Notes under the pieces: model-generated
Seen by the model: the letters and a program-made list of their open reading frames with translations, nothing else
What the model was told of the DNA's origin: nothing
Databases searched by the model: none
Program-made: the position numbers and the translations under genes
Source of the DNA: Anaspis maculata
Lineage: Eukaryota > Arthropoda > Insecta > Coleoptera > Scraptiidae
Direction: 5' to 3'
Assembly (NCBI GenBank): GCA_949128115.1
Contig: OX421964.1
Span: 33,472,177-33,536,176 of the forward strand
DNA length: 64,000 nucleotides
Part shown: piece by piece, positions 29,651-50,103 of the stretch
Position numbering within the stretch: position 1 is the stretch's first letter
Layout of the letters: each line of letters opens with the position of its first letter

Positions 29651-30110
29651 GACACTTCACGGCGAGTTACGTACACTATTTTTCCTACGACCGGGAGAAA
29701 ATTACATTCAGATTAAGACGTCACTTTCGTGTTCTTCAGTAAACATAGAGTTCACAAAAACCAATGGATAAATGATAAACACATAAATAAGGGTAATTTT
29801 AAATGGGTTTATAACGGAAATGTGTATGTATTTCAGATTTTCAGAAATTGAAATTTGCAAAAATTCATATTTTTTTCACAATTGTCAATTTTTTCTCGAA
29901 AAACACCGTTTCTTTGACCACCCAGATTTATCGATACTAATATTTTTTCATAATACTTAAATTATTACTCGAGAAACACCGCTATTTTCTGACCAAGCCT
30001 GCCTGTGGCTGTTGTTATGCTTGAGCATCTTACAAGCGAGCGGTAGACCGAATTATCGCAAAAAAATAAAGAATCCCATCAAAAACCAGTCTTTCAAATT
30101 TCGATTACTA
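29651..30110. other. no gene recognised
   Basis: AT-rich spacer between the Harbinger element and the tandem-repeat foldback element. Confidence 0.4.
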
Positions 30111-30466
30111 CGGAAGCGTAGAAGGGCCATGTGCTTTTTTTTCGTATCAATGTCGTTATTTATTAAATGCCGACTTTCAATCTTAGCAAATAGTGAATGC
30201 CAGCTTTCAAACCCAGCATTTATTAAATGCCGACTTCCAAACTCAGCATTTATTGAATGCCGACTTCCTAAACTCAGCATTATTTATTAGATGCCGACTT
30301 CCTAAACTCAGCATTTATTAGATGTCGACTTCTAAACTCAGCATTTAATAAATGCCGATTTCTAAACTCAGTCGGAATTTAATAAATGCTGAGTTTAGGA
30401 AGTCGGCATTTAATAATTGCTGAGTTTAGAAGTCGGCATCTAATAAATGCTGGGTTTGAAAGTTGG

Positions 30467-30600
30467 TATAGCATATAGTCTTGCTATTATTAAAATATGG
30501 AATGATTCAACGTGTATATTTTTTATTAATTTTTATATTATTATATTTCTTAGGCAACTGCCAACAATCTCTACGTAATAACAATAACAATGTACCTACA
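30467..30600 (-). repeat. Gypsy 3' LTR
   Basis: 134 bp, identical by eye to the 5' LTR. It reads TGTAGGTACATTG… on the element's strand and ends …GCTATA, so the terminal dinucleotides are TG…TA rather than TG…CA. Confidence 0.9.
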
Positions 30601-31744
30601 AATACCCCCCTTCCCGAAAAGTTTCTATTTGAAATGTCACCGTTTTTTTTGGTTCTGTGACGGTGACGTCAGGTGCAGGGGACATTGCTGTATATGCCGG
30701 CTTTAATCTATCAATGGAAATTGCTACTTCGGCATCATTTTTTAATATAAAAAATGTTTTTTGCGTTCTTTTTATGACTTTGTAAGGCCCCTCGTATGGT
30801 TGCTGCAAACTGAAATTTTTCTTGGGAATACCAACGAAAACATAATCACAGGACTTCAGATCTTGGTGTACAAATACGTTGTTTTCGCTCCGTCCTCGAG
30901 GTGACACTGGCCGTATGATATTCATTGCTTCTTTTAATTTTGACAAATAATTTGCTGGGTCAGTGGCTGTTGTAGTGCAGGGGGTGAAAAATTCTCCAGG
31001 AACTCTTAGCTTTTGACCGTATAGTAATTCTGCCGATGAGCATTTTAGATCTTCTTTAAAAACTGTACGGAAACCTAATAAAATAACTGGAACCTCTGCA
31101 CTCCAATTGACAGTATTTTGTCTTGCCATAAGACTGGCTTTAAGTTGTCTGTGGAAACGTTCCACCATGCCGTTGCTTTGAGGGTGATATGTGTTGGTAT
31201 GAATTTTATGGCAGCCGAGTAATTTTGTAAGCTCTGTAAAAATTTTGCTTTCGAATTGTGTTCCTTGGTCTGTGGTTATAGTTGCAGGTATGCCGAAACG
31301 TGTTATGAAGTTAAAAAATAATGTTTTTGCGACTGTAGCAGCCGATATATCTTTTAAAAGGTACGCTTCGGGCCACCTCGTGAACCGGTCCACTACTGTT
31401 AGAATGTATTTGTATCCGTTTGATTGTGGAAATGGGCCTACCAGGTCTGTATGTATATGCTCAAATTTAGCTTTTGGTAGTTCAAATTTACCTAATTCTG
31501 ATTTAGTATGGCGATTAATTTTAGATTTTTGACAGCTAATACATGTCTTAGCCCACAATGTAATATCTTTATTTATACATGGCCAAAAGTAACGCGAACA
31601 CACGAGTTTTCTTGTAGCGCGAATTCCAGGGTGGGAAAGGTTATGCAGACAATTAAAAATCATGTGACGGTATTTTACAGATACAAAAGGTTTATTTTGA
31701 CCTGTAGAAGTTTCGCACCACAAAGGTATTTCTGAGAAAGGCAT
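30596..31744 (-). CDS. Gypsy integrase region of pol
   Basis: The zinc-binding HHCC module is seen at H34, H38, C68 and C71 ('HNLSH' and 'CISC'). The catalytic core has D100 ('HTDLVGPF'), D159 ('TTDQGTQF') and E195 ('GMVERFHR'), a standard DD35E spacing. A C-terminal domain with 'SCDYVFVGIPKKN' and 'YEGPYKVIKR' follows. The reading frame is +1 relative to the upstream RT-RNase H frame: that frame stops at 31782, in an A-rich run (CAAAAATAAAAAG), while the integrase frame is open across this point. In most Gypsy elements pol is one frame, so this is probably a one-base indel in the homopolymer. The first ATG (31744) need not be a natural start. The stop overlaps the LTR edge. Confidence 0.9.
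   Translation of the reverse strand: MPFSEIPLWCETSTGQNKPFVSVKYRHMIFNCLHNLSHPGIRATRKLVCSRYFWPCINKDITLWAKTCISCQKSKINRHTKSELGKFELPKAKFEHIHTDLVGPFPQSNGYKYILTVVDRFTRWPEAYLLKDISAATVAKTLFFNFITRFGIPATITTDQGTQFESKIFTELTKLLGCHKIHTNTYHPQSNGMVERFHRQLKASLMARQNTVNWSAEVPVILLGFRTVFKEDLKCSSAELLYGQKLRVPGEFFTPCTTTATDPANYLSKLKEAMNIIRPVSPRGRSENNVFVHQDLKSCDYVFVGIPKKNFSLQQPYEGPYKVIKRTQKTFFILKNDAEVAISIDRLKPAYTAMSPAPDVTVTEPKKTVTFQIETFREGGYL
30601..30616 (-). other. candidate polypurine tract
   Basis: Immediately inside the 3' LTR the element strand reads GGGAAGGGGGGTATT, the position and composition of a plus-strand primer. Confidence 0.65.
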
Positions 31745-31781
31745 TATTATCTTTTTAAATTGAATCTTGCTGCTTGGCTTT

Positions 31782-33731
31782 TTATTTTTGAGTAAGTTTT
31801 TTTAGCTCGTCATTTATTTCTTGTTCTTCACTTAGTGATTTTATGTCAATATCGGCTAAATTTAGGATTCCTATTTCTTGTTTATCTACTCTAGACAAGG
31901 TATCTGCGACGATATTCGATTTTCCTGTTATATGTCTGATATCTGATGTGAATTCTGAAATGTATGTTAAATGACGCGTTTGTCTTGGACTTCTCTCTGT
32001 TTTTGTGTACAAGGCTGTAGTCAATGGTTTGTGGTCGGTGAAAACGACGAATTCGTTCCCTTCTAGAATAAAACGGAAATGTTGTATGTTAAGGTAGATC
32101 GCGAGAAGTTCGCGGTCAAATGATGAATATTTTGTTTCGGTAACTGACAATTTTTTTGAAAAAAATGCTAGAGGTTCCCAGACACCTTGATTGAACTGCT
32201 CTAGTACTCCTCCAACGGAGGTACTAGAAGCGTCAACGGTCAAGCTATATTTTGTATGTTCTTTTGGATGAAATAATAAACAGGCCGAAGTTAATGATGA
32301 TTTTATGTTATTGAATGCTTTGTCACAATCTGTGTTCCACTGAAATTTCTTCTTCTCGACTTTATTTTGTAGCTCTTTGAGTAGTTCGTATAAAGGTCTC
32401 ATTGTAGCAGCTAATTTAGGAATGAATCGGTGATAATAATTTATCATACCAACAAAGCCTTGGAGTTTCTTTAACGAATCCGGTGTCGGAAAATCGAAAA
32501 TGATTTTAACACGGTCTTTGGAGGGTAAGATCCCGTTTGTATTGATGTCGTATCCAAGAAATGTTATCTGTCTAACTCCAAAAATACATTTTGAGGGCTT
32601 TAGATTCAAACCGTATTTTGACAACCTCTCAAATAATTGTTTCAGATGTTCTAAGTGTTCTGAGTCGGTTTTACTTGCTACTAGTATGTCGTCTAAATAA
32701 ACAAAAACGAAGTCTAGTCCTTGAGTTACCTCGTTGATGAATCTTTGGAATGTCTGGCCTGAATTTCGCATGCCAAAGGGCATTTTGACAAATTCAAATA
32801 AACCGAACTGTGTCGTTACTGCTGTTTTGAAAATATCTTCTGGTGCTACTGGTATTTGATGGTATGCTCTGAGTAAATCGATCTTTGAAAAAATGGTACA
32901 ACCTTGCAAATTTTGATTGAAACTCTGTATGTGAGGAAGTGGGTATCTGTCTGGTACAGTTATAGTGTTCAGTTTGCGATAGTCTCCACAAGGTCTCCAA
33001 TCGTTGGAATTTTTTTTAGGTACTAAATGTAAAGGTGAAGCTACACTGGAAGATGAAGGCCTGCAAATTCCAAGTTCTACCATATAGTCGAATTCTGCTT
33101 TGGCAATTTTGTATTTTTCAGAGTTAAGTCGACGTGGTGTACAGTATGGTAAAGGTCCGTTTGTTACTATATGATGTTGTGTATTATGTTTGACTGTCAC
33201 GGAAAAATCTGGTGGTGCTGTGAGTGATGGATATTCATGAAGTAGTTGTGTGTATATGTTTTCGATTGCGAATATTTTAGGTGAGGGTGTGTTTGTTCGA
33301 ATGATAGGTGTATTTATAGACAAAGAGGTGTGTGAATCAATTAACCTTCTGTTTTTTAAATCTACTAATAAGTTGAATTTTGCCAGGAAGTCTGCTCCTA
33401 AAATAGGGCGACTAACTTCTGCAAGAATGAAAGGATAAACAAAATCGCGGCGTAGATTCAAATTGACTTTCAGTAATTTGGTACCAAAAGTTTTAATATT
33501 TGAACCATTTACTGCCGAAAGGACAATATCGTTATTTGTTTTGTATGCATTGAAAAAGGAATTTGGTAAAACAGAGACATCAGCTCCTGAGTCTATCAAA
33601 AATTTTAAATTATTATTTCTATCAGTTATAAACAAGCGGTAAGATTTGAAACATCCATTGTTGTTGGTAGCCATTTCAACAATGGATTTTACTCGTTTTT
33701 TGAAGATGTATAGCTGCAAGGTTGGATGCAC
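31782..33731 (-). CDS. Gypsy pol: protease, reverse transcriptase, RNase H
   Basis: 649 codons. The aspartic protease motif is '[12 protein letters not shown]' (D47-S-G). The RT domain runs from about residue 195, with '[20 protein letters not shown]', '[12 protein letters not shown]', '[15 protein letters not shown]' and the catalytic 'YLDD' at 345-348. RNase H has '[16 protein letters not shown]', '[16 protein letters not shown]' and 'FTDHKPLT'. All catalytic residues seen are intact. The frame overlaps the end of gag by about 40 bp and lies at -1 relative to it, as in elements that use -1 ribosomal frameshifting. Translation ends 38 bp before the first ATG of the integrase frame. Confidence 0.93.
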
Positions 33732-34618
33732 TTATTTGCTTTTTCGTCAAAATTGAAGTGGTACCAACAACAAGGTTGATTATTTTTAAGGAAATTCCTG
33801 TTTTTGCTTGCATTACGCTGGGAGTGCCTTTCGTAACTCCCACTTCTGCTGCGACTGCGGCGTCGATGACATTCTGTACATGATGTTGATGGTAAAGTGT
33901 TACCTGCAATTGATGTTTTTAGTTCAGCCATTTCTGAATGAATTTCGTTGTACTGACAAGATAATTTAGAAATCAATTTCATAATGTCTAAAGATATATT
34001 GGGAGCTACAGTCGATTGATGAGATGACTGTTGATGTTGTGAATGATGGAAAGCATTGACATGATGAAGCGTTTGGGTTGATACGTCCCATATTTTGTCG
34101 GCTATGTCAGAGAGTTCTTGAATATCGGTTTTACTTGAAGCCATGAGAGCGATGTTGATAGCGGAAGGTAACTTTTTCAACCATAACTGTTTTAGGAGCT
34201 CTCTGCCTACCGTCGTGGAGGTACCAGTTAATATTTCCATTGACCTGTACAATTCTGAAGGCTTGCGATCGCCCAGGTTAGTATTAGACAAAAGTTCCTC
34301 GAGTTTTTTTTTTTCGCTTATTGAATGCCTTTGAATTAATGTGGCCTTTAGCTGATCGTAATTTTGATTTAAGGGATTTTTAATTTTATCCCATACGGTC
34401 AGTATCACCTCTTGAGGCAGAGAGGCAACAACGTATTCGTATTTTGTATTGTTCCTGTTTATACCTTTTAAATTGAACTGAACTTCAGCTTGCATAAACC
34501 ATGCTTCTGGGCATTGTGTCCAAAATGATGGTAATTTAATTGATGTTGCGGCTTGTTCTCGCAGGACATTATTGTGATTGTCGCCGGCACCTGCACCTGT
34601 TTCTTGTTGATCTGTCAT
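33689..34618 (-). CDS. Gypsy gag-like protein
   Basis: 309 codons. The capsid-like N-terminal part carries '[20 protein letters not shown]' (the W-F segment typical of insect Gypsy gag), 'VASLPQEVI' and '[19 protein letters not shown]'. A histidine/glutamine-rich linker follows, then an Arg/Ser-rich basic stretch ('[15 protein letters not shown]'), and it ends in a C/H-rich knuckle-like motif ('[19 protein letters not shown]'). It is presumably the particle structural protein; it starts 315 bp inside the 5' LTR. Intact. Confidence 0.88.
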
Positions 34619-34910
34619 GTTGACGTTGTGTGTGGACAGGATGACGTCGGGCAGGAATCACGTCGGAGTGGTTGCGTCGAGTAGTAATCTCGTTGCACTG
34701 GTTCACTTCGGGCAGAGATGGATCGTCTATCTGCCGGATTACATCGGTCGGACTTGATCGTGTTGGGGTGGATCTCGTTGCGCTGGATTACGTCGCGGCG
34801 GTCGAGATAGGTCGCACTGCGCCGTTGAATCACGTCGGGACGGACCGCACGTTTGGACGGTCGGGATGGATCGCACGTTGGGACGGTCGAGATGGGTCGC
34901 ACTGCGCCGT
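34619..34910 (-). other. Gypsy 5' untranslated leader with internal repeats
   Basis: GC-richer than the surroundings. Blocks such as GGTCGCACTGCGCCGTTGAA are repeated (near 34810 and 34897), together with variants of GGATCGCACG. The frames here are repeat artefacts. Confidence 0.6.
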
Positions 34911-34911
34911 T

Positions 34912-34931
34912 GAATCACGTCGGGGTCACCA
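34912..34931 (-). other. candidate primer binding site
   Basis: One base after the 5' LTR the element strand reads TGGTGACCCCGACGTGATTC. It begins with TGG, as expected for pairing with a tRNA 3' CCA end. The tRNA was not identified. Confidence 0.65.
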
Positions 34932-34932
34932 A

Positions 34933-35066
34933 TATAGCATATAGTCTTGCTATTATTAAAATATGGAATGATTCAACGTGTATATTTTTTATTAATTTTT
35001 ATATTATTATATTTCTTAGGCAACTGCCAACAATCTCTACGTAATAACAATAACAATGTACCTACA
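34933..35066 (-). repeat. Gypsy 5' LTR
   Basis: 134 bp, identical by eye to the 3' LTR at 30467-30600. Confidence 0.9.
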
Positions 35067-35165
35067 GTTGGCATTCACTATTTGCTGAGATTTAAAGTCG
35101 GCATTTAATAAATGACGACATTAATACGAAAAAAAACACATGGCCCTTCTACGCTTCCATAATTA

Positions 35166-35475
35166 CGGAAGCGTAGAAGGGCCATGTGTTTTTTTTTTCG
35201 TAATAATGTCATCGTTTATTAAATGCCGACTTTAAATCTCAGCAAATAGTGAATGCCAACTTTCAAACCCAGCATTTATTAAATGCCGACTTCTAAACTC
35301 AGCATTTATTAAATGCCGACTTCTAAACTCAGCATTCATTAGATGCCGACTTCTAAACTCAGCATTTATTAAATGCTGACTTCTAAACTCAGCATTTATT
35401 AAATGCCGACTTCTAAACTCAGCATTTATTAGATGCCGACTTTCAAACTCAGCATTTGATAAATGCCGACTTTTA
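35166..35475. mobile_element. tandem-repeat foldback element, copy B (one arm)
   Basis: Begins with the same CGGAAGCGTAGAAGGGCC end, only about seven bases from the end of copy A and facing it. About seven to eight 30-bp units follow in one orientation. There is no opposite arm, so this is a half element. Confidence 0.7.
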
Positions 35476-36071
35476 CATCATGTGCCATGGTGGTATGCTT
35501 ATAAGCTGCGATATTCAGGAGCACAGTCCATCAGTGAAGCACTATACGAAATAGAAGATATTAACTTTCGGTGGTCGTGGTCGTTACCTGTGGTATATCA
35601 TTCTATGCTGTAGTACCTCAACGAAGAGTTTCTCAGAGTAAGTACATATGTATAAGGCGGTAGGTACCTAATATTCTCAATGATAATAACATTGATAATA
35701 ATGAATACAGTGTGACCAAGCTAACAAAAACTCTGAAGAGCCTGCCGCCTTGGCAGTTGGGCTGACATTTCGTCAAATCGGCCAGATTTCGTGGTAGTCC
35801 ACATATTACATACAGGGTGGAAACTTAACCCTGTTTAAACTCAATAACCAAGAACATTTCACCAAAAACCTCGGATAGGTCGATTTGTAAATTTAAAATG
35901 CCACATTTTGGTACTAAACATGTGACCAGAAGCGGCGCAACGGGAAGAGGCCCAATTTTTTTTAATGCATAGGGGTCAAAAATAACGCCATTCCAATCTT
36001 CCTTATTTGATTTTGTATCCAACCTATAAAAACAATTGAAATCCTACCTCCCAAAAGAAAATGACGGCACG
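35476..36071. other. no gene recognised
   Basis: Anonymous. An isolated TACAGGGTGG lies near 35813, with AACCCTGT shortly after it. Confidence 0.35.
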
Positions 36072-36826
36072 TACAGGGTGTTCACGATAAAATTCACCCC
36101 CCCTCTAGGAGATTCCCCTTTGAGATATTTTGAAAAACTAGGAACTTTTTCTCAACGATTTTTCCCAGGGATCTTGAATCGATCGTCTAAAAGTTTCTAA
36201 TTGGTACCGTATACAGGGTGTGACATGTAACTTTTTTATTTTAAATACAACACCCTATATTTTATCACGTCATTTGATGTAGTTTTTCTTTCTGATTACA
36301 ACGATATATCATACTCATGGTTTATTTTGACAAGGAAGCTGTCGAAAAAATAATAAAATAGGTAGTCGAATGAATTGAAAATTGAAAATTACGCGACACC
36401 CTGTATCAGGAACAAATTAGATGATTTATCCATGCAGAGTTGAATCCTGCAGACAAAATGCTGCAAAAATAACTTTTTTTCAAGTGAAATATAGAAACCA
36501 AAGCCATCTTACCGCGAAACAAAATTAGTTGAATACCTATTTTATTATTTTTTTTGACATCTTACTTGTCAGAATAAATCATTAGTGTTATATATATTTG
36601 TAATCAGAAAAAAACGCTCCACCAAATTGCAAAATAAAATACAGGGTGTTGTATTTAAAATAAAAAAGTTACATATCACACCCTGTATACGGTACCAATT
36701 AGAAACTTTTAGAGAATCAATTCAAGGTCCCTGGGAAAAATCGTGTAGAAAAAGTTTTTAGTTCTCCAAAATATCTCGAAGGGGAATATTCCAGAGGAGG
36801 GTGAATTTTATCGTGAACACCCTGTA
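36072..36826. mobile_element. TACAGGGTG foldback element with nested modules
   Basis: Arms of about 190 bp begin TACAGGGTGTTCACGATAAA and end with its complement. Each arm contains a second TACAGGGTG terminus (near 36211 and 36641), so one foldback appears nested in, or fused to, another. Non-coding; directly upstream of the integrase gene. Confidence 0.85.
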
Positions 36827-37580
36827 CAAAAACCCGACAATTTTGTAAACTTAGTGTTGAAAATGTTCGCCAATAACTTATTACCAGGATGCCAACCTCT
36901 TATAAAAACTTTTGTGAACGTTCCTGAGGATCTCTGGACTGACGTTTCTTATTTCTTGCATGATTCTGGATTCTACATAGGTGAGATTGTGGGATTTTCG
37001 TATGTGCCGCCATTTTGTTTTTGAGGCAGGATTTTAATTGTTTTTAAAGGTTGGAGAGAGAATCAAACGATGATTAAAGTAGTGTTATGGGTAAATCAGA
37101 ATCCAGGGCCGGACTAGAAAAATCTGCCCCTTCCTCTTGTTATGGCAAAAAGTGTATTTTCTGACCGCTTTTTTGAAAAACTGTTTATGGATTCGAAAAG
37201 CAGATAAAAATGCTACAATAATCAATTCTCAAATCGGATGGCAAACCTCGACCGTCTTGGCAAAAAATTGTCAAAGTAGATTTTGTAAATAAGTTTTCAT
37301 TTTTGACCGGGCATAATCTACCCATTGCTCGATTGAATTCATTCAAATTGATTCTCATACTTGTATCAAGGCAAGACTTTGAGGAAAGGGCTTATAAAAA
37401 AGTTTCAGGGCCGAACTTTTCTTTCAAAGACAATCGAATGTACATAGAATGTACGAATGATTGGGGCTTCTGTGTGGGAAGCAGATATTTTTCGCTGGAT
37501 GTGGAGCGCTTTAATTGAATTGAACCGATGATGATAATAACACTTTAATATTTAGCAGGTGCTTCTTTCCAGGTATCGAT

Positions 37581-39581
37581 AATGGATGATTCGACAGGTT
37601 CTTTAGGGAAAAGATATTTTGCACTTGGATTACAACATAAAGAAATTTTGGGATTCTTAAATAACGTATGGTCCGAAAGTTTTGGGAATTTTTTTAATAG
37701 CTAATAACTTTTTTCTGATAGTTTCAATTTTGTAGCTTAATATTGCAAAAACTAGCGTCATTTTCAACAATTTCAAATTCGTATTCAACATATTGAAGAT
37801 GGGCCATTATCTTTGATGGCTCTCGGTTTTCTTCTGCCATGTTCGATCATTCTCTGGACAACAGCAGGATTAATTTATCAGAGCTCCTGCCTCCCAATGT
37901 ACCGCAAGCTCGACCAATATAAGATTTTTGGTGAGTATTGAGCAGGATAGTATACGACAAGGGATGGGAAGCTGCGAATGAAGACCAATTACGGCATCAC
38001 ATTTTTCAATAATATTCGAGAATTTCGCATTTGACAAATTGATACAAAAAATCATGGAACATGGCAGAAGATAATTGAGATCCATCGAAGATAATGGTCC
38101 AATTTCAATATGTTGAATATGAATTTGTTATTGTTATATATGATGTCAATTTTTGCAATATCAAATACGAAAATAAAGACTATTCAGAAAAAGTTATTAG
38201 CTTAGAACTATTTCCCAAAACTTTCGGACCATACGTTATTGCTCATGGAGTACAAATAAGTGAAAGAACTCTGAAAAGAACTCTTTCGAAATTAAATCTG
38301 TTCAGAAGAAAACGTTATTCGAATATTGAAGATGTCTCAAAATTCATACAAGAGCAGATCAATAGATCAGGACAGCTACATGGTTACCGCTGGCTACATT
38401 TAAAATGCATCCAAAATGGACTCGTTGTTACTCAAGAAATCGTTCGTGAATTACTAATTATAATGGATCCACAAGGCGTTGAAGGTCGAAGAAGAAAGCG
38501 ACTTCGACGAAGGTTATATCATAATAAAGGACCAAACTACGTCTGGCACATGGATTCATATGATAAGTTGAAGCGATACGGAATTTGTATCAATGGGTGT
38601 ATAGATGGTTATTCACGACATATTATGTGGTTGAAAGCAGGACGTTCATCAAGTGATCCCAAGATTGTAGCAGGTCACTACTTGGAAACTATTGAAACTC
38701 TAGGTGGTTTTCCAAAGACTATCAGAAGTGACATTGGGACGGAAAATGTAGTTGTTGAGAGAATTCAAAAAGCACTGTCTGGAGTTTTTGGAAACAACAC
38801 ATCTAGCAAGCCTGCATTTATATATGGAAAGTCACCTGCTAATCAACGTATAGAAAGCTGGTGGTGTATCCTAAGGAAACATCAATCACAGTATTGGATG
38901 AACTTTTTTCAAATATTGCGTGATGAAGCTATGTTCGATGGAACTTTCTTGGACAAAGCTCTAATCCAGTTTTGTTTTTTAGACATCATTCAAGTAAGTA
39001 CCTACCTATGATTAAGTTTATCTATCGAGTGATCCTTTCAATTCCTTTTTTTTCCTTTCCTTTCCTTTCAAGTTTGTCAGGGCATGCAGGCTGTACTAGC
39101 TTCTCTAAATTACGAGTTCAAATGACCACACTAAATAGATAGGTACAGATAACTACATGAATACACTTTGTATCAACAGTCATACCAGTCATATCTAACA
39201 GTAAGGCAAACCAGTTTAATATTAAGATCTCATTTCAATCTTCTTTTACAGCATGAGCTTGATGAAGTTGCCTTACAATGGAACGTCCACAAAATCAGAA
39301 AGACGAAGAATGCCATATCGCCCTCTGGTCGTCCCATTATACTGTACCAAATGCCAAATTTATATAACGCACAGAATTATATTAAGAACATTTCTGCTGA
39401 TCTGCTTGATATTTTGGAACATGAATGTTTAAGAGAAGAGTACGTGTGTGATGAAGACGTGTATAAACTATGCAATATCATAATTGCTGAAAATAATTAT
39501 GTTAAAAATGACGACCCCTATGATTTGGTTAATTTATACGTCAACTTAAGAAATAAAATAAGTGTATTGTTGGGACTATAA
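37581..39581 (+). pseudogene. DDE integrase-type transposase (eukaryotic IS3-like), split by a MITE
   Basis: Coding is in three parts: 37581-37663, then 38239-38993 after a MITE, then exon 39252-39581 after a GTAAGT/TTACAG intron. A helix-turn-helix front ('YFALGLQHKEILGFL', 'VQISERTLKRTLSKLNLFRR') precedes 'QLHGYRWLHLKCIQNGLVVT'. The integrase core has D in 'YVWHMDSYDKLK', D in 'TIRSDIGTENV' and E in 'NQRIESWW'. The C-terminal exon has 'LDEVALQWNVHKIRKTKNAI'. This is the animal integrase_core family I associate with IS3-like (IS3EU) transposons. A possible upstream exon (36863-36980, GTGAG donor) does not join in frame, so the first ATG is uncertain. The only clear lesion is the MITE. Convergent with the HECT-like gene. 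Confidence 0.82.
37664..38236. mobile_element. 573-bp foldback MITE inside the integrase coding region
   Basis: Terminal inverted repeats start ACGTATGGTCCGAAAGTTTT, with complement at the right. TA lies on both sides (37662-37663 and 38237-38238), the Tc1/mariner signature. Arms extend inward for well over 100 bp with mismatches. Removing the element and one TA would bring the two flanking coding segments into one frame. Confidence 0.88.
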
Positions 39582-40349
39582 GAAATGCGGGGCAATCTGC
39601 AATAAATGATAGATAGACTCAAGAAGTTAATACGAGAGGTATTATTACCTATAAGTAGGTATGTGATAGAGGTACTTGCTTAAGAATTATTTGTATTATA
39701 ATTTCCTACTATTCCAGTTGCCTATTTCATTATCACTTATTAATTATTTCATATTATTTGTTTCAATTACCTACCTGTCCCACGAGTCCTCGAAACTGGT
39801 TGTCATTGATGTGTTTTTTTTTGTTAAAAGTGTTAAATATTCACATTCGGTAAACATTAGCTTTTGAACGTACACCTTAAGCCTCAGCTTCTTGAAGAGC
39901 CCGAAGATGACAAAATACCGCATTCCATCCACAATGACTATTTATGATATAAGTGTTAAAAATGACAGATATTTTATTATGAGCGAGTGGAGCAACCCCG
40001 CGAACAAAATAAACAACGGTGCTAGAAATGTTTGCACTAAGCCATAAAATTTTGACAAATAAGATGGGAACGTCACCTTTAACACGTCCCCATGACGATG
40101 TGTTAAAAGTGTCGTTGATGACGAGTATTACTTCACGCTTGTTGATGAAGTAAGTTTTTGAAAAGCGTTCTATATGACGACAACAAAATGCAACTTTCAG
40201 TAAGTAGGTATGCCAATAGTTTTATTCGAAAAAAATAATGCTGAATAATATGCAAGAAAATATAAAAAGTTACAATATAAAATACATAATATTATTATAT
40301 GTAATTATGTATCATGCATAAAAAAAAACATTCACATAATATTCACCAG
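39582..40349. other. convergent intergenic spacer
   Basis: AT-rich, between the stop codons of the integrase and HECT-like genes. No further gene seen. Confidence 0.5.
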
Positions 40350-42946
40350 CTAAACTGCATCCATCACCCAGATATTGCTAGTTAGCACGTTTTTGAACTC
40401 CCATTTGAATTCTGAGTACGATTCATATGACACCGGCAATTCCAAAGTTGATGTGCAAGTGTGCCCTATGGGTGATCTAGCAATTCCCTCAGCCCTATTG
40501 AAGGTCAGGTTTATTACATTTCCGGTAATCATATCGGCCCCAGTGGTGAATCTGAGGAATTTCTCAAGCAACTGAGCGTCAGACTCTCTTATAAACCTTC
40601 TTAGAAAGCTTATCACTCTACTTGCATCTGCGCTGTCGGTCTCCGGGAAGTGTATTAGATTCAGTACATTTTTATTCGTGATGTCGTTCATTTCATAAAT
40701 TTTATTGAACGTTTCGTGACTTATTTGATTGTTCAAAATTGTCCTCCAATTGTCGATAATGAACTTGGGCTTTTGTATAATGTCTCTATGTGACACTTCC
40801 TTTATGATCTTTTGGAAATTTTGTTTCGTCAGACGCTGCGTGATATTCAAACTTTCCATAATATCCAGTATGTCTTCGTCTTCAACATCTTTGAATTTGT
40901 TCATCATTCTTCCGAGAATGACTCTATCGGCATCACATATAAAGGTGGAGTAACTACCTACCAAATCGCAACGTATTTCACCAAATACTACCTCTTCCAT
41001 AAAAGCTCTATTCAATTTTCGAGGGAAGTACTGAGTAGTCCGGTGACCTATCAGCAAAATTTTTGCAATGGCCTGCCACTCTTCATTCTGGAATTCGTGC
41101 TTAATTATAGGTACCTTGCAGCCCACGCCCTCGCAAAACTGACCAAATAATGTCTCCCAAAATTCGGTGAGGGCGTCTTTTAGTACGCCCCCGCCGTCGA
41201 ATGCGGCCTCCACATTTCCATTTGGAAGTATCATAGAATCGACTATCACAGTGAAGTTGTTTCCGCGAAGACGTTTTACCTCCTCAATCAGCTCGACAAA
41301 TACATTTCCTCTGTGAAGGTTTAAGTGCAACTCGATGTTCGGCGATAGGTCAAATTCAAAGTTCAAGAACTCATCCAATGATATTTCAGCTTCGGTTCGT
41401 GGAATGAAAAGCAATGATGACTGTGACATGGATTCTGAGGATGTCGGTGCTGCTGACGTTTCCTCCAACAAAGGCGATGCTGGAGATGCTGATGCCAAGG
41501 ATGGTGAAGCCTGATGTGGTGATACTCGTGGTGATACTCGTGATGTTCGTGCTCGTGTTCGTGGTTGCACTGGTGGTGTTTCATTTTGTCTTTCTGTTCG
41601 TTTTTGTCGTTTGGTGCCGTTTGTTACGAGGTAAAATCGTAAATGGGTCAATCCGGTTATATTGTAAATTTGTTCGACTGTTAACAATTCAGTAAAGGTT
41701 TTCTTCTTGAAATCTGTAATATCTCGGCTGGTTATCTGGTCTTCAATTTCTTTCAGGAACAGTCGACTAGCTTCTTCCTGGATTTGCTTCTTCTTAGCCG
41801 TCTTCGAAACGTGAATCTTTCTTGTTCCTCCGCCCTGCTTTGTACGAATTTGCTTTCCGTTATGAATCCACCCAAATTCCACCAATCGAGTCGACTTCTT
41901 TTTTCTGATTTCAGGAGTTTTTGAAGCTGTAATTTCTGTCTCATCATCACTCTTTGAATTTCTTTTGTTTCCCAACTTTTTTTGGAGATTGGCAATCAAC
42001 TGGCTTCGTTGAGTTGCTGACGAATTTTGCTTTTCACAAAAGCTGATAACAGCCTGCCGATCACCGTAGTGTTCCAAATACATTGAGAGGTTTTTTTCTG
42101 GCATCCCTGGAATGGCTTCCTCATCTACCTAAAATAAAACAGTATACGTTATGAATAAATATCAATTATTAATGATTAGATATACATAAGATATACTATC
42201 ATGTAAATTTTTGTTAAACACAGAAAAATGGATCAGTCAAATTCGCAATATAGGTGAACTCAATCTGATCCAGACGTAAGCTGGATGCATTTTTACAAAT
42301 CCCGCGCTATGGGCCTAGTTTCCCATCAGCAATTCAGCTCACCCAGAGATGGCTTTAAACTTATTAATAAGGTCTATTGTGTACGATAGTAAAATCTAAA
42401 ACAAAATCACCTTCTTCATTTTCCGACACATGTTTTGTAACACTCTGTATTTGCTCTTGATGTACTTTGTCCGAGCTCCAGAACCAGCAATCCATGCACT
42501 TGGAAGATTGATGTTCAAAAATTCAAGGCAAAATTTCTTTAGGTACATCGCAATTGCCAAATCGTGTCCGGAATATTAAGCATCAAGACAAAGAAACTAA
42601 CGATTGTCTTTATATGAAAATCTAACGGGAAGGGCTAAACCCTAACGAAACTATTTTGTCGCTTGAGACGTTTTATTTCCAGATAAAATTAGACAGGAAA
42701 TAAAAAAGAAATCGGTGCAAAGTGCCGTTCGTGACAACGACAAGCCGAGAAAACCCAGGAAGTTCGAGGGTGACGGTCGAGTAAGCCCGCGAAGCCTCGT
42801 AGGCTTGTTTGTCTATGCTGAAGAAGCTGAAGAAGGCTAGATTGTTAAGAAAGCTCTAGGTAGATACTCACTTTATCCCTCTTCATTTTTGAAATGGTCT
42901 CATCCGAAATTCCTCTGTTTACCAGGAACTCTTGTAGATTCATCAT
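40350..42946 (-). CDS. HECT-like (G2E3-type) protein paired with the integrase
   Basis: Two exons: 42946-42872 ('MMNLQEFLVNRGISDETISK') and 42128-40350, spliced in phase (GTGAGT donor, TTTTAG acceptor), giving about 617 residues. The N-terminus resembles a SAM-like bundle ('YLEHYGDRQAVISF'). The middle is basic, then Ser/Ala/Pro-rich and low-complexity. The C-terminal ~320 residues are HECT-like: 'DGGGVLKDALTEFWETLF', 'FLRFTTGADMI' and 'GHTCTSTLELP', placing a Cys about 34 residues from the end, where the HECT ubiquitin-accepting Cys lies. E3 activity is inferred. Intact and convergent with the integrase gene. HECT/G2E3-like genes are highly amplified in some animal genomes, compatible with carriage by a transposon. 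Alternative: an unrelated host gene next to a transposon. Confidence 0.75.
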
Positions 42947-43323
42947 TGCTATCAATTGCTGCAAATTTAAGAAGATTAAGGTTGGCGTTACCCACCCCCG
43001 GTTGCAAGAAACTAAAATTTGCTCCGTCGCAAATTAGCTTCGGTACCAAACTCGGTATCAAATGGTAGGCTATTTGTAGGCGTAAAAAAAGGAGTGTCTA
43101 GGGTGACGACTGACATAATATGTCAAACAAAAAATTGAATAAAATATGGGAATGGAAAGCTGAGCTGATATTGTGAGTGAGAAAAGCACTGGTGTGCCTA
43201 ATTCAAACCGAGTATACGTTTGGGTTTACATTTTGTGCTCATAAATAGAGAATTTTGGCTGATGGGTGCAGGCAATCAGTTATACAGGTTTGTTTGTATG
43301 AGGACATTTGAAACAGTTGAAGT
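42947..43323. other. no gene recognised
   Basis: Probable upstream region of the HECT-like gene. No convincing TIR matching the integrase side was found. Confidence 0.35.
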
Positions 43324-43599
43324 CTAGCTGTCAAGAGTCAAGCAAATTTGAAGAGTGGAAATGGTGCGCGGAAAGAAATACACCGAAGAAGATAGCTCTA
43401 GGTCTTTAACTCCGATGAGATCCACGATCCGCAACACATTGTCCTTCGTGAACCTATATCGCTCCTTAAATTCCTTGTTGTTGTAAAACTCGAAGAGGTT
43501 TTTCCGCTCAGCATTTACACGACGAACTGCACCTGCAACGTCTTGCTCTTCTTCAGAAGAGGAAAATTCGGAGACTTCAGAAAGCGCCGAGTCAGACAT
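43324..43599 (-). pseudogene. HARBI1-like nuclease, N-terminal fragment
   Basis: Starts 'MSDSALSEVSEFSSSEEEQD' (acidic/serine tract), then 'RKNLFEFYNNKEFKERYRFT' and 'DNVLRIVDLIG'. This corresponds to the first exon of Harbinger nucleases, where a short acidic lead precedes the F-x-x-x-x-R-x-T/S block. No catalytic exons follow, so it is truncated. Confidence 0.6.
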
Positions 43600-44451
43600 T
43601 TTAGATACGCATACAGCGTGACATATTGTGACGGCCCGGTCAACAACAAACCGTCCACCACACGTTTCGATCCGGTTAACTCTTTATTGCAGTTGCCGAG
43701 TCGTGTGTCGTGTGGGACCTGATGGGCAAGGGACCTAAACTACCTAAATGTGCACATCTAAGGGTTAGGGCAAGAGACAATAAGACAAGAGAAAAGAGGC
43801 AGCCATTTTCAGTGTGTGAGGTCTATTTTTGTACCAAAGAAAAACTTGACAAATCCAGAATTCAGTTTCAATCCTTTCTCTCAATTTCTTTGCTGTTGCT
43901 CATGCCAACGACTCCTGCAGTATTTCCTGTCGTCAAAAGCTGTTCTGGAGCTACTGAATCAGCACTGGATATCACCTTGACACATGCTTGATACAGTGTC
44001 ACTAGCGGCCCAAAATTGTTCAAGTTTCGTCACGGGATCACAGTCCCAGTACTCCTGTAACTCATCGTTGTCACCGAAGCACTCATACTTTGACTGAGCA
44101 ATACTTTGCAATAAAGAGCTCCGCGTTCTTGGTGTAAACAACAGCTTTGTTTCCGCCGTACAGGTACAGGGCTCGTGGAGGCACCCAGCAAGTGTTCGCA
44201 ATTTCAGTCGGTAACTCCCATCGCCTGAACCTGGAATTGTTGATCGACATACGATTGTTGTTGCATTTACGGAGGCAGTTTGTCATATTCACCTGATCGA
44301 CAGCCTGTGCATGGATTTATGCCTCAATTCGACGCAATGATTTGCATATTATTCTTCAAAACTCGAAGAAATAAATAATGCTGTTAACCTCTGAAATTCC
44401 TGACGCTTCTTTGACTTTGACAGCTTGCGACGCGAGGTAGGTAAATCTTAT
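43600..44451. other. no confident gene
   Basis: A minus-strand frame near 43959-44201 ('YECFGDNDELQEYWDCDPVT') could be an exon of an unknown gene; it shows no family resemblance. The plus frame at 43710-43991 is also unassigned. Confidence 0.3.
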
Positions 44452-44580
44452 CTATTTACGAGACGGTTTTTTTTGATCGGCAATGACACAACGAACTGCA
44501 TCTTCTACTTCTTGTTCTTCTTCAGAAGAATAAAAATCGGAGACGTTGGAAAATTCAAAATAAAGTGTCGAATCAGACCT
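44452..44580 (-). pseudogene. second HARBI1 N-terminal fragment (diverged paralogue)
   Basis: Reads 'FSNVSDFYSSEEEQEVEDAV', then 'RCVIADQKKPS', a diverged copy of the acidic lead at 43324-43599. DNA similarity extends upstream of the ATG region (both have CATACGCATA near their outer edge). Too short to be functional. Confidence 0.5.
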
Positions 44581-44599
44581 TTTAGCGCTTTTAGGTACG

Positions 44600-46030
44600 T
44601 GCATACGCATAAAAAGATGCAAGTAGTTCAAATGCGTGATAACCTTAGCCACAGCCTGTTTGCTACCTCGTTTGATACCCTGTTCCTGCAACCCGATCCA
44701 ATTTGCTACGTCGCAAAATTTGCTACCACGTTCCTGCAACCGGGCACTAGTGAGACAGACTTTCAGACTTATTTACAAAGCGGTGGAGTGGGTGAGACGG
44801 AAACGTATACTTTGGACCAGGTTGTGCGGTTCAAAAAATGTAACAAAAATTACAGAGAGACTTCAAACATGGATGGCTTGCGAGTGATACATATGTTTAG
44901 TTTAGAAACATTGGAAAAGTCGATTTTTAATTTCAAAGCCCTTTCGAAATTCAAAATTAAAAGGTATCACGCCCTTCTTAATCGTATTTCAGAGACCTAT
45001 GACCATTTTCATACTTTTCCCATTCATTGGTTTTATTGCAAAAAGATTCCGTTGGTTTACAGGTTAGGAAAACTACTTCGTTTTTGGGTTAGGAAATGAC
45101 ATCCTTAAAGTTTCGTATAAGCAATTTCTTGAACGTTATCAGTCAGTCGCTGTCACTATCGGCAAATTTCTATTTTTCTTGAAAACGCCATCAAACCATT
45201 AACCCTACAGCAAATTTGCCAGTCGCCCACATTTCCCAAAAACCGCTATAATAGGCTCTACCAGACATGATTTTTTTTTGAATTATTTTAACGGAATATT
45301 TATTCATAAATAAGTGCTATAGCGAGAAAAAATTTCCTTTTATGTTGCATTTTCTTAAAAAAAACTTGAACATCGCCTGTTTAGTTTCCCGCGAATTTCG
45401 TGATAGCTGTGGAGCCAATGGAAACTCCAGTCAGAACAAGGTGACTGTGCGCAGAGTACAACAATGTGGCTGTCACCTGTTTTAATATTTCAAGCTTCAA
45501 GTTAGTGTCAGATTGTGTCAGCACAAATCAACGATCTCTCCTTACTTGTGCATGTGAATGCCAACATTACCACGAAATTTGTTCTACGTTCACGTTTGCG
45601 ATGCCCAGTAGAGATCGCACCACGGACCCAGGTTCTAAGGAAGCCACAAACCATAAATTGCTATACTTATGAATTTCACAATGGTGTTCGAGTTTTATGA
45701 TAAAGCACCCCGATTTTGATCACTTCGAGGTGAAAAACATCAAAACCAGGAAGTCACAGTATGCACTTGGTAGCATGGTAGCTGGAGGTTGGTACTTCAC
45801 AGAGATGCAGTTTTTTATTGACACCTAATTAAAACAAGTGAGTATGCCTTCACGTGCGTGAGTCTCAGTAACGCATTTTCTCAAAGAGGCATATTGTGGA
45901 CATAAAGAAATTTGGTTGAAGGAGAAACACCATTCCTTGCCCACTTTCTTCATTCGAAACTTATTGTGATATTTTGTTATCAGAATGGGGTACTTGCCAA
46001 TGAAATAGATTTGAATGAAAATTCTTTCAC
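44600..46030. other. no confident gene
   Basis: A 224-residue plus frame (44425-45099) crosses the fragment above. It has no recognisable domain and is treated as chance. Confidence 0.35.
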
Positions 46031-46039
46031 TCATCAATA

Positions 46040-47230
46040 TTTTTTTGTTTGAGGGCGGGAGCTGGGAGCGGCGACTAATCAACAGTAGTCTATATATTCT
46101 TTCCCATTTTTAGTCGGCTATCCAAATAGCGGAAGAATTAGATCGCTGTCTTCGGGTTTATGTATTCCATTTATCTCTTACTTTGAGGGCAGCGTGTGGG
46201 GGTGGCAGCATTCGGCAAAGTAACTGTTGCACAGTTTGAGTTAGGAGTTTCTACATGTTCAAGGAAATATGACAATCAGTGAAAATTTTGAAAGTTGCAT
46301 TTTTTTGTTTGGGGGCGGGAGCTGGAGGCGGCGACTAATCAAGAGTGGCCTATCTCTTCCCATTTTTAGTCAGCTATCTATATAGCGGAACAATTAGATC
46401 GCTATGTGCTCAGAGTAATGTTTTTCATTCATCTCTCACTTTGGGGGCAGCGTGTGGGGGCGGCAGCATTCGGCAAAGTAACTGTTGCACAGTTTGAGTT
46501 AAGAGTTTCTAAATGTAAGGGAAATATGACAATCAGTGAAAATTGTGAAAGTTGCATTTTTTTTCTTTGGAGGCGGCAGCTGGGGGCGGCAGCTAATTAA
46601 AAGTGGCCCATCTTTTTCCAATTCCAGTCAGCTATCAATATAGTGAAAGAATTAGATCGCTATGTCTTCAGGTTCATGTTTTACATTCATCTCTCACTTT
46701 GGGGGCGGCGTTAGAGAGCGGCTGAGTTTGGCAAATAAATTCTTGCACAGTTTGAGTCAAGAGTTTCTAAATGTTCGAGGCAACATTATCAGCTAAATCA
46801 GTGAATATTGTTAAAAGTTGCACTTTTTTTTCTTTTGGGGGCAGAAGCTGGAGACGGCGCCATATCAAAAGTAACCTATCCTTGTCCATTTTTTGTTAGC
46901 TATCCATATAGCGAAAAACTTAGATCGCTATGTCTTCGGGTTCATGTTTTTCATTTATCTCTTACTTTGGGGGCGGCGTGTGGGAGCGGCAGCGTTCGGC
47001 TGAGCAAATGTTGCATAATTTGAATTGGCAGTTCCTAATGTTCAAGAGAACATCTCAATCAGTAACATTTGTGAAAGTTGCACTTTTTATCGTTTGGGGG
47101 CGGAATCTGGGGGCGGCGACTAACCAAAAGTAGCCTATCCTTTCCCATTTTTAGTCAGCTATTTATATACCGAAAGAATCAGATCGCTATGTCTTCGGGT
47201 TTATGTTTTTCATTTTAAAGTGATTGGGGG
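46040..47230 (+). repeat. ~255-bp G-rich tandem satellite, about five units
   Basis: Successive units begin near 46045, 46302, 46557, 46827 and 47087 (periods about 255-270 bp). Each contains a T-rich run followed by a G-rich block (TTTGGGGGCGGGAGCTGG type). It then has AATTAGATCGCTATGTCTTC, a second G-rich block (GGGGGCGGCGTGTGGGGG type) and GTTGCACAGTTTGAGTTA. The small open frames inside (46406-47133) are repeats of one another. Confidence 0.85.
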
Positions 47231-47524
47231 CGGTTTTTAGCAGTTTTTTTCATGTCGGCGGCGCATATTGAAGACGGAATGTTTCTTGGCTTACGTTTAT
47301 AAGTGGCAACTATGTATTAGTCAAAAAATGAGAACACCAGAGCATCAGGTCTGGTCGAAAGTGCAATATTATGTTATTTCAAGTTTATCGGGGGCGGTTT
47401 TCTCTATGTTGGCGGCGCAATATGGACATCCAATATAGCCTAGCCCTCCTTTGGGAGTGGCAGCTATGTAACAGCGAAAAAATTAGAAAGCTAGGTCGTC
47501 TAGTTTGGGAGGAGTTTGAGGAAC

Positions 47525-47552
47525 GGACGGACGGACGGACGGACGGACGGAC
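47525..47552 (+). repeat. (GGAC)7 microsatellite
   Basis: Seven perfect tetranucleotide units shortly after the satellite. Confidence 0.85.
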
Positions 47553-47889
47553 AAAGCGGTTGCGATAGCAATTTTCATCAAGATGGAAAATGCGCTAAAA
47601 AAACATAGCCCCGGTGCAATGAGCCAAAATCCGCGAGCTAGGTATTGTACTCCGTACTCCGCGCTGGTCCGAGCTACCCCTTAGAGCTACCCAGAGCGAG
47701 TTGCTTCCCGGTCCAGGTGCATGAAGCCCTCAATTCAAAAGCGATGGGCATCAATGTGGGAGAGGCTCAAAACTCTTGTTTAACTACGAGAAAACACTCT
47801 TCGCAACGACCGTGGTCCAAAAACGACTTCTATATATGATGACTTCCGTGTTGTTTGCACACAATCGGATATAGCGCACTTTTTTATGG

Positions 47890-49188
47890 TTTTTACCTAC
47901 GACCACTACCGTAAGTGCCGTATACCGCACAACTCGGAACCTAAGTAAGTGAGCCCTTACGCACATCGTGACGTATTCTGTAAAGTAAATCGCACAGCGT
48001 GCGGTAATGGTAAAGTAAATCGCACAGTTAGGGAATTTAAGTTTCTAATTTTGGGGGAATTTTTATCGAAAGACATTCTCAAATAATTCACATTCAAAAA
48101 TGGGAGCATTTCACGGGAATCTGATGCGTGCCCCGGTAGCACCTTTCACACCGAAAGCATAGGCGAGACTAGCTGTATATATTCGTAGCGAAGGCATAGC
48201 CATAGAAGTGAGATGTATCAACAACAAAATCGTCCAGATTTTTTTTCCAAGTGAGGGATTTGAGAATTTCTTGATTAAATTTTAGCTTGCATTTGTAGGG
48301 CTTAGTTTCTACCTGATCACAATAATTTTGCGAGATTTACTAAAAAAGATTCAAAATATCAATGCAAGGACTGCCCGCAGTCAACAACAACTTGGGATCA
48401 AGTAGGTGTAAAAATTAGACAGTTACAACAAGCACCAAATGTCTGATGACAGGTACGCTGCTGCCTGTCTACCTAAGTTCGATAATTTTCAAATAATACT
48501 ATTTATTGCTGTCCAGTATTCATGTCCCAGTGTTGTAATCAAACTATATTACCACGCCGAACGAATAATTGAATGGCTATAGGTAGGTACGCTTCTAAAT
48601 ACACCTCAGGCCTCGCTTCAGGCACAGTAAGTGAACACTCAATTTTCAAAAATCGATTTGTGGGTGCTTTTCTTTCAGGTCTCGACGAAAAGCGTTTTAC
48701 AACAGACAACCACCGAGCCAGCAGACACTAAAGTTTGAAAATGCTATCCGTCTTTGACGTTGGATTAATCTGATGGCCGTAAACACCAATCAAAGTACCT
48801 CCCCCTTCTCCGATTTACTGTAGTTTTAGTTTTCAAAAGTGTATAATATGCGATACATAATACTCTTATTCTTATTTAAATACAATAAAAGTAATCAACT
48901 CGCTCTAACTTGCTCTACTTGCTCTAAATTTAGCAAAACCTAGGATCCTATGAACACGGATATTAATATTATGAACACGGATGACGGCCGCTGACATTGC
49001 TATGAGGTGCGTGCTCCTCCTGTCAAGAGTGTCAAGGCACACTTCGCACCGACCAATCAACACAATCTGCATACGGCGGGATTTTATTTGAATTTTGAAT
49101 CAGGGGAGAACTTGAATTGTAGGTATTTCATGAAATACGTGGCTTTTTTACCTATAATCTTTGCCGTTTACAATACCACTGGCTACAT
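47890..49188 (+). repeat. 1.3-kb direct duplication, copy 1
   Basis: Collinear with 50632-51923 from TTTTACCTACGACCACTACC to ACAATACCACT. Small indels and scattered substitutions; more than 90% identical by eye. No coding region recognised. Could be a non-autonomous element or a segmental duplication. Confidence 0.85.
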
Positions 49189-49590
49189 TTCACGTTAATT
49201 ATAGCTTTTAAGTCAATATCTACTGTTATTGTTGATGTAGGACTGTTATATTACCTTGGATTTCTGAAAATTATTCTGGGCCCCTCACAAAGTTACAATA
49301 CCGCTTTGGATTGGGGTCGTAGGTAAAGTACTGTACATGACACGAGTAGTAAAGCAATTACGCACTCAGGGAGTACTGCACTCGCTCGCTACACTCGCTC
49401 GTGCGCCACTTTTCCCTGCGTGCGTAATATGCTACTTACTACTCTTGTTACGTAATGTACTATTACTCGAGTTTTCCAAATAACATCACAATGACAGATG
49501 TCAGTAATGGCATTTCGCTAGACAGAATAGAAATTAAAGCGAAACTCCTTCTCTTCCTTCTTTGAATATTCGATTTTATATGCTAACTTT

Positions 49591-50050
49591 GAAAGTCGGC
49601 ATTTAATAAATGCTGAGTTAAGAGGTCGACATTTAATAAATGCTGAGTTTAGAAGTCGGCATTTGATAAATGCTGAGTTAAGAAGTCGACATTTAATAAA
49701 TGCTGAGTTTAGAAGTCGGCATCTAATAAATGCTGAGTTTAGAAGTCGGCATCTAATAAATGCTGAGTTTAGAAGTCGGCATCTAATAAATGCTGAGTTT
49801 AAGAGTCGGCATTTAATAAATGCTGAGTTAAGAAGTCGACATTTAATAAATGCTGAGTTTAGAAGTCGGCATCTAATGAATGCTGAGTTTAAGAGTCGGC
49901 ATTTAATAAATGCTGAATTTAGAAGTCGGCATTTAATAAATGCTGGGTTTGAAAGTTGGCATTCACTATTTGCTGAGATTTAAAGTCGGCATTTAATAAA
50001 CGATGACATTATTACGAAAAAAAAAAACACATGGCCCTTCTACGCTTCCG
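49591..50050. mobile_element. tandem-repeat foldback element, copy C (one arm)
   Basis: About twelve 30-bp units (GCATTTAATAAATGC core), leading into GATGACATTATTACG and the terminus GGCCCTTCTACGCTTCCG at 50050. A single-orientation array, like copy B. The open frame 49663-49983 (repeating SRHLINAEFR) is a by-product of a repeat length divisible by three. Confidence 0.8.
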
Positions 50051-50103
50051 TACGTAATTGCTTTCAAAATATAAAAAATGATCTTTTCCATAAAAAAAAT
50101 TCC

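Follow-up and report, generated by a model that had tools for sequence, protein, structure and literature searches.

Does a gene that faces a transposase gene belong to the same transposon, and if so, what could its product do there? The question arises in a 64,000-nucleotide stretch of the genome of the beetle Anaspis maculata (contig OX421964.1, positions 33,472,177 to 33,536,176; hereafter the window). Here a gene for an integrase-like DDE transposase converges with a gene whose predicted product resembles a HECT E3 ubiquitin ligase. We consider it very probable that the locus is an IS3EU-type cut-and-paste DNA transposon carrying a second, convergent gene for such a ligase. More tentatively, we propose that the ligase targets a host protein that limits transposition.

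Ends of the element and its mobility

To locate the ends of the element, we used the shared boundary of two near-identical copies elsewhere in the genome (contig C2, 5.13 Mb, and contig C4, 75.17 Mb), which share 99.7% identity across 14.5 kb and break off together at a motif ending in TA. By this boundary the whole transposon in the window runs from 35164 to 50052 on the + strand (14,889 bp), with TA...TA termini and the end motif at both ends. Its terminal inverted repeats, at 35164..35198 (+) and 50018..50052 (-), match perfectly over 35/35 bp. Inside each lies a subterminal array of the same kind of 30-bp unit, at 35215..35472 on the left and, in opposite orientation, at 49593..50000 on the right. 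An earlier note on this DNA had placed the pair of genes at 36863..42946 and reported no terminal inverted repeats; the actual unit, at 14.9 kb, is larger, and the repeats escaped notice because they lie outside that interval. Likewise, scanning 33.0-38.0 kb against 42.9-48.0 kb of the window gave no convincing terminal repeats with duplications, since the right end at 50052 falls outside the scanned range.

The 20-bp end motif marks a family that has moved. With up to two mismatches it occurs at 545 places (267 + 278) in the 758-Mb genome, and the reversed control occurs at none. Four places lie in the window, at 30109(+), 35142-35161(-), 35164(+) and 50033-50052(-), compared with 0 in 100 shuffles. 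Twelve convergent motif pairs stand 0.2-2.8 kb apart; eight have an exact 6-bp duplication at their borders, two match at 5/6 positions, one has a 5-bp duplication and one has none. We read four of these short copies whole (237, 510, 540 and 2,727 bp) and found ends and arrays like those of the window element; the remaining eight were compared at their ends alone. Because they are too short for both genes, we take the short copies as non-autonomous derivatives of the element.

These features point to a known superfamily. Passages of PMC10045372 and PMC12730594 describe IS3EU elements as having TA...TA ends, 6-bp target site duplications (TSDs) and an integrase-like DDE transposase without the HHCC/H2C2 zinc finger. 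The window element and three other families of ends have TA...TA termini, and a search of the window exons, two full-length relatives and two frames from the same genome for Integrase_H2C2 gave nothing at E<=1. The termini, the 6-bp duplications and the apparent transposase type thus fit IS3EU as described in that part of PMC10045372, and the same three traits make up the likeness to IS3EU/GingerRoot.

Linkage of the transposase and HECT genes

The earlier note had suggested that the element carries its own ligase-like factor, and three elements bear this out: in each, both genes lie within inverted repeats flanked by exact 6-bp TSDs. One, at C1:119.48 Mb, is 8,575 bp long, with an inverted repeat matching at 59/62 bp and the TSD CCATTG. 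Its integrase has one stop in the last exon, and its HECT gene is in at least three pieces, of which the C-lobe scores above the Pfam cut-off and the N-lobe below it (E 0.0035). The other two are twins of 11,838 bp on different contigs (C1:47803704-47815541 and C5:10309649-10321486) each with its own exact TSD, GAAATC in one and GTTCTC in the other. Their integrase sides are identical over the first 0.8 kb, and their HECT sides agree at 99.95% over 4 kb and at 100% over the last 1.3 kb. By coordinates, each twin holds an open integrase frame (299 amino acids) and an open HECT frame (701 amino acids). The element moves as a single unit encoding transposase and HECT-like ligase. Common inverted repeats and target duplications outside both genes, which the earlier note had advised looking for, are present in several copies.

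The pairing also recurs across the genome. After merging genome search hits we counted 37 integrase loci and 51 HECT loci, both lower bounds; an rva_4 profile search of the genome gave 33 matches, which stand outside these counts. Among the 27 integrase loci of at least 40% identity, 15 are faced by a convergent HECT gene no more than 20 kb away (12 of them within 10 kb), the recurrent layout that the earlier note had foreseen. At one further locus the HECT neighbour is non-convergent and lies within an inverted integrase pair, the other member of which is convergent. The remoter integrase loci show the arrangement at 3/10 within 20 kb. Overall, 19 integrase loci have a HECT neighbour, compared with a mean of 0.0955 and a maximum of 2 in 2,000 random placements of the 37 + 51 loci in any orientation.

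These numbers bear on the view that the HECT gene lies beside the integrase by chance, either as an ordinary host gene or as one that is mobile in its own right. With 51 HECT loci against 19 integrase loci that have a HECT neighbour, many HECT loci stand alone, as this view would expect, and ordinary host genes are among them. However, it is refuted for the three elements that enclose both genes within inverted repeats and exact TSDs, and it sits poorly with convergence at 15/27 loci and with the additional locus in the other orientation, where the integrases form an inverted pair. We regard it as scarcely credible.

Two further observations concern the integrase loci themselves. At C1:38580570-38586445, two inverted integrase copies lie 4.4 kb apart with one HECT-like match adjoining. 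Three loci of a remoter integrase lineage (L022, L023 and L024; about 30% identity) are near-identical copies on three contigs; their integrases converge with a HECT gene of another type, and their left end begins TATGAGGCGCCG.

Several points weigh against a ligase-carrying IS3EU element. The window copy is flanked by CATAAT and CGTAAT, an imperfect target duplication that matches at 5/6 positions, and a 17-kb copy on C2 has matching ends and non-matching flanks. HECT Pfam scores are low, with some N-lobes below the cut-off. The locus counts include near-identical copies, so not all are independent. The earlier note had held that integrase copies lacking a HECT-like gene would speak against the pairing, and such copies exist beside the 15 paired ones: at 12/27 integrase loci, several of them fragments, we detected no convergent HECT gene within 20 kb. 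At C9:15.117 Mb the integrase is open and a terminal repeat follows about 2 kb downstream, with no HECT match before it. At the second HECT-less locus examined, the terminal repeat lies further out and a weak HECT-like remnant is present (E 6e-4). Given the 12 loci with no convergent HECT gene detected and the open integrase copy without a HECT match, some elements may do without the ligase or receive help in trans.

The two genes and their products

The transposase gene starts at 37582..37661 (+), as judged from its translation and from by-eye comparison with the N-termini of relatives. After codon 27 it is interrupted by a miniature inverted-repeat transposable element (MITE) of 579 bp, at about 37662..38240, with 29-bp perfect inverted repeats and in-frame stops. 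The exon with the DDE core follows at 38241..38993 (+), assigned by Pfam and alignment, its left border after the MITE being approximate. A GT...AG intron between 38993 and 39252 leads to the last exon at 39252..39581 (+), which was placed by its splice sites and its matches to other copies in the genome. The integrase matches Pfam rva_4 at E=5.6e-27, and rve was also matched in transposase frames. The D, D and E codons, already seen in the earlier note, start at 38553, 38730 and 38853; in an 18-row integrase alignment both D residues are invariant and the E falls in the 90%-or-more class. The in-frame stops of the MITE deprive the window copy of a normal transposase. This copy is probably not autonomous at present, with its HECT frame still open. 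A further copy of the MITE, 90.6% identical, lies in the related locus L017.

The HECT gene faces the transposase gene on the - strand. Exon 1 (42946-42872), defined by translation and splice site, supplies 25 codons with a SAM-like start; after a GT...AG intron, exon 2 (42128-40350) supplies 592 codons plus a stop and encodes a ubiquitin-like part and the HECT N- and C-lobes. The 25+592 codons contain no inner stop, and the Pfam HECT match (E=9.2e-6; 25.9 bits against a cut-off of 23.9) lies above threshold, so the earlier description of an intact, two-exon, HECT-like gene holds. Cys558, 34 residues before the C-terminus as that description had it, is present in 8/8 aligned rows (the window protein and seven relatives); in one relative RTC replaces HTC. 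Structure prediction, a check that the earlier note had advised, supports a HECT fold with both lobes over residues 255-590. Together with the catalytic Cys, this predicted fold is what the protein has in common with known HECT E3 ligases such as UBR5, HUWE1, NEDD4 and E6AP. It differs from them in its SAM-like and ubiquitin-like N-part, in being encoded by a transposon and in its low identity to them, 10-16% among the 50 Foldseek matches listed.

Upstream of the HECT fold, residues 81-170 are predicted to form a ubiquitin-like (beta-grasp) fold in the order b-b-a-b-a-b, with a pLDDT (predicted local distance difference test) of 76-93 in 10-residue means. The top Foldseek matches to this part are mostly ubiquitin-like folds, with 0 at E<=0.001 and the best at 3.3e-3. 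The alignment rows used for exon 2 hardly test its N-terminal half. The SAM-like label describes only a sequence pattern at the start of the protein, a segment split over two exons; searching both window exons and six relatives for Pfam SAM yielded nothing at E<=1.

Could the HECT protein have degenerated into a passenger that has no ligase activity and persists by hitchhiking? The low Pfam score of 25.9 bits, the HECT-less integrase copy and the identity of only 31-41% to its relatives would suit such a fate. Against it, the catalytic Cys is retained in five of five other C-lobes read from the same genome as well as in all eight aligned rows, and open frames reach 701 amino acids. Codon positions point the same way. 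In four HECT pairs, positions 1/2/3 differ at 51/37/69, 49/40/62, 50/32/67 and 44/33/67%, so that position 2 is least and position 3 most different in 4/4, a pattern that we read as a sign of protein-level constraint. Integrase pairs give 39/30/60, 32/22/57 and 34/26/62%. We therefore think a degenerate passenger improbable.

Relatives of both proteins occur in other animals. The HECT protein has at least seven, five with a named source (Phaedon, Ceutorhynchus, Garra, Gymnodraco and Huso), at 31-41% identity over 54-100% of the query (BLASTP). Both HECT searches scored just the 7,997 candidates sharing most words, so relatives are undercounted; the second, with the alignment as query, gave no new relatives. 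The integrase has 634 matches, and the 120 listed include beetles, fish, frogs and echinoderms, the closest named relatives among the matches listed being beetles. Phaedon and Gymnodraco occur in both sets. Viral contigs yielded no relatives of either protein.

Possible targets of the ligase and comparison with known systems

Comparison of ligases within the genome suggests that they are modular. In the C1:119.48 Mb element, the N-terminal part is 36% identical to the ubiquitin-like part of the window protein; its HECT N-lobe, which has no BLASTP match at 1e-3 to the window N-lobe, shares 48% identity with the N-lobe of the remoter L022 lineage. Locus L011 has the same kind of N-part (36%), and its HECT domain is nearest to that of L017 (44%) among those compared, with 21% identity to the window. 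Because the N-parts are alike while the HECT domains differ in BLASTP, at least three HECT sequence types accompany related N-parts and integrases.

How might such an element work? The DDE transposase would bind the ends and the 30-bp subterminal arrays and then cut, with insertion at staggered 6-bp sites. The ligase would ubiquitinate a host protein that limits transposition, such as a silencing or repair factor, and its SAM-like/ubiquitin-like part could serve as a binding module. The earlier note, too, had tentatively named the transposase or host repair proteins as what such a factor might control. We favor a host protein as the target, with some reserve, because the transposase remains recognizable across copies whose catalytic domains vary. 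Alternatively, the product of the element's HECT gene could act on the transposase or on end complexes, in turnover or in disassembly after strand transfer. Proteolytic factors disassemble transposition complexes in other systems, and here the transposase and HECT genes face each other and move as a pair. Changing host targets nonetheless fit better, though the argument is indirect, with the three or more HECT types that accompany related N-parts and integrases, and we judge action on the transposase rather unlikely.

An accessory gene opposite the transposase has a precedent with another enzyme. According to the portion of PMC12730594 consulted, fungal TET+ IS3EU families have an alpha-kinase gene opposite the transposase and a TET gene between; they differ from the present element, where the accessory gene encodes a HECT protein. 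Ginger1 transposases carry OTU or Ulp1 domains, as stated in a section of PMC2836005, and so provide another integrase-type transposon with a ubiquitin/SUMO-pathway enzyme. There, however, the domains are deconjugating proteases inside the transposase and the TSDs are 4 bp, whereas here a ligase-like protein is encoded by a separate convergent gene. Set against those Ginger1 domains, a ligase is the opposite arm of the ubiquitin pathway. The word "hect" is absent from the main texts of PMC12730594, PMC2836005 and PMC4255032. Our literature search, which lay outside Repbase, found no paper joining HECT, IS3EU and transposon, and for HECT with transposon none of the titles listed was on topic.

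As a speculation that we ourselves find doubtful, IS3EU transposons might reserve a place for an accessory gene, either convergent with the transposase or opposite it, which an alpha-kinase would fill in fungi and a HECT ligase in animals. The animal ligase would then serve as an enzyme of counter-defence, its catalytic domain being replaced whenever the targets in the host change. Transposons that carry deubiquitinating or SUMO-removing enzymes have been described, and the portions of the literature searched contained none with a ubiquitin ligase. Since the ligase is kept with the transposase at many loci and has relatives in beetles and fish, a link between the ubiquitin pathway and transposition would become directly testable. 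The findings also suggest that transposon genes are among the animal gene models that bear the name "HECT domain-containing protein" or "Integrase core domain-containing protein".

Neighbouring elements and other features of the window

Immediately to the left, a short element at 30109..35161, recognized by sequence comparison and by its copies of the same end motif, of which the right one has one mismatch, carries a long terminal repeat (LTR) retrotransposon at 30467-35066. The latter is 4.6 kb long and has two identical 134-bp repeats; its - strand encodes domains of a reverse transcriptase, an RNase H and an integrase, and it also contains a DUF7041 frame. The short and large elements abut in a near-palindrome with 2 bp between their ends. 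One reading of the short element gives it an exact 5-bp duplication, ATTAC, which overlaps the first bases of the large one.

Within the large element, between the left terminal repeat and the transposase gene, sits a 757-bp element (36071-36827) with long internal arms and inverted repeats GTACAGGGTGTTCACGAT... (32 bp, 97%). On the other side, Pfam matched none of four frames at 43.3-45.1 kb. A direct repeat of 85 bp (79%; 43499-43583 and 44468-44552) lies in - strand frames upstream of the HECT gene. Farther along the HECT-side arm, a tandem array at 46040-47214 contains 4.5 copies of a 258-bp unit.

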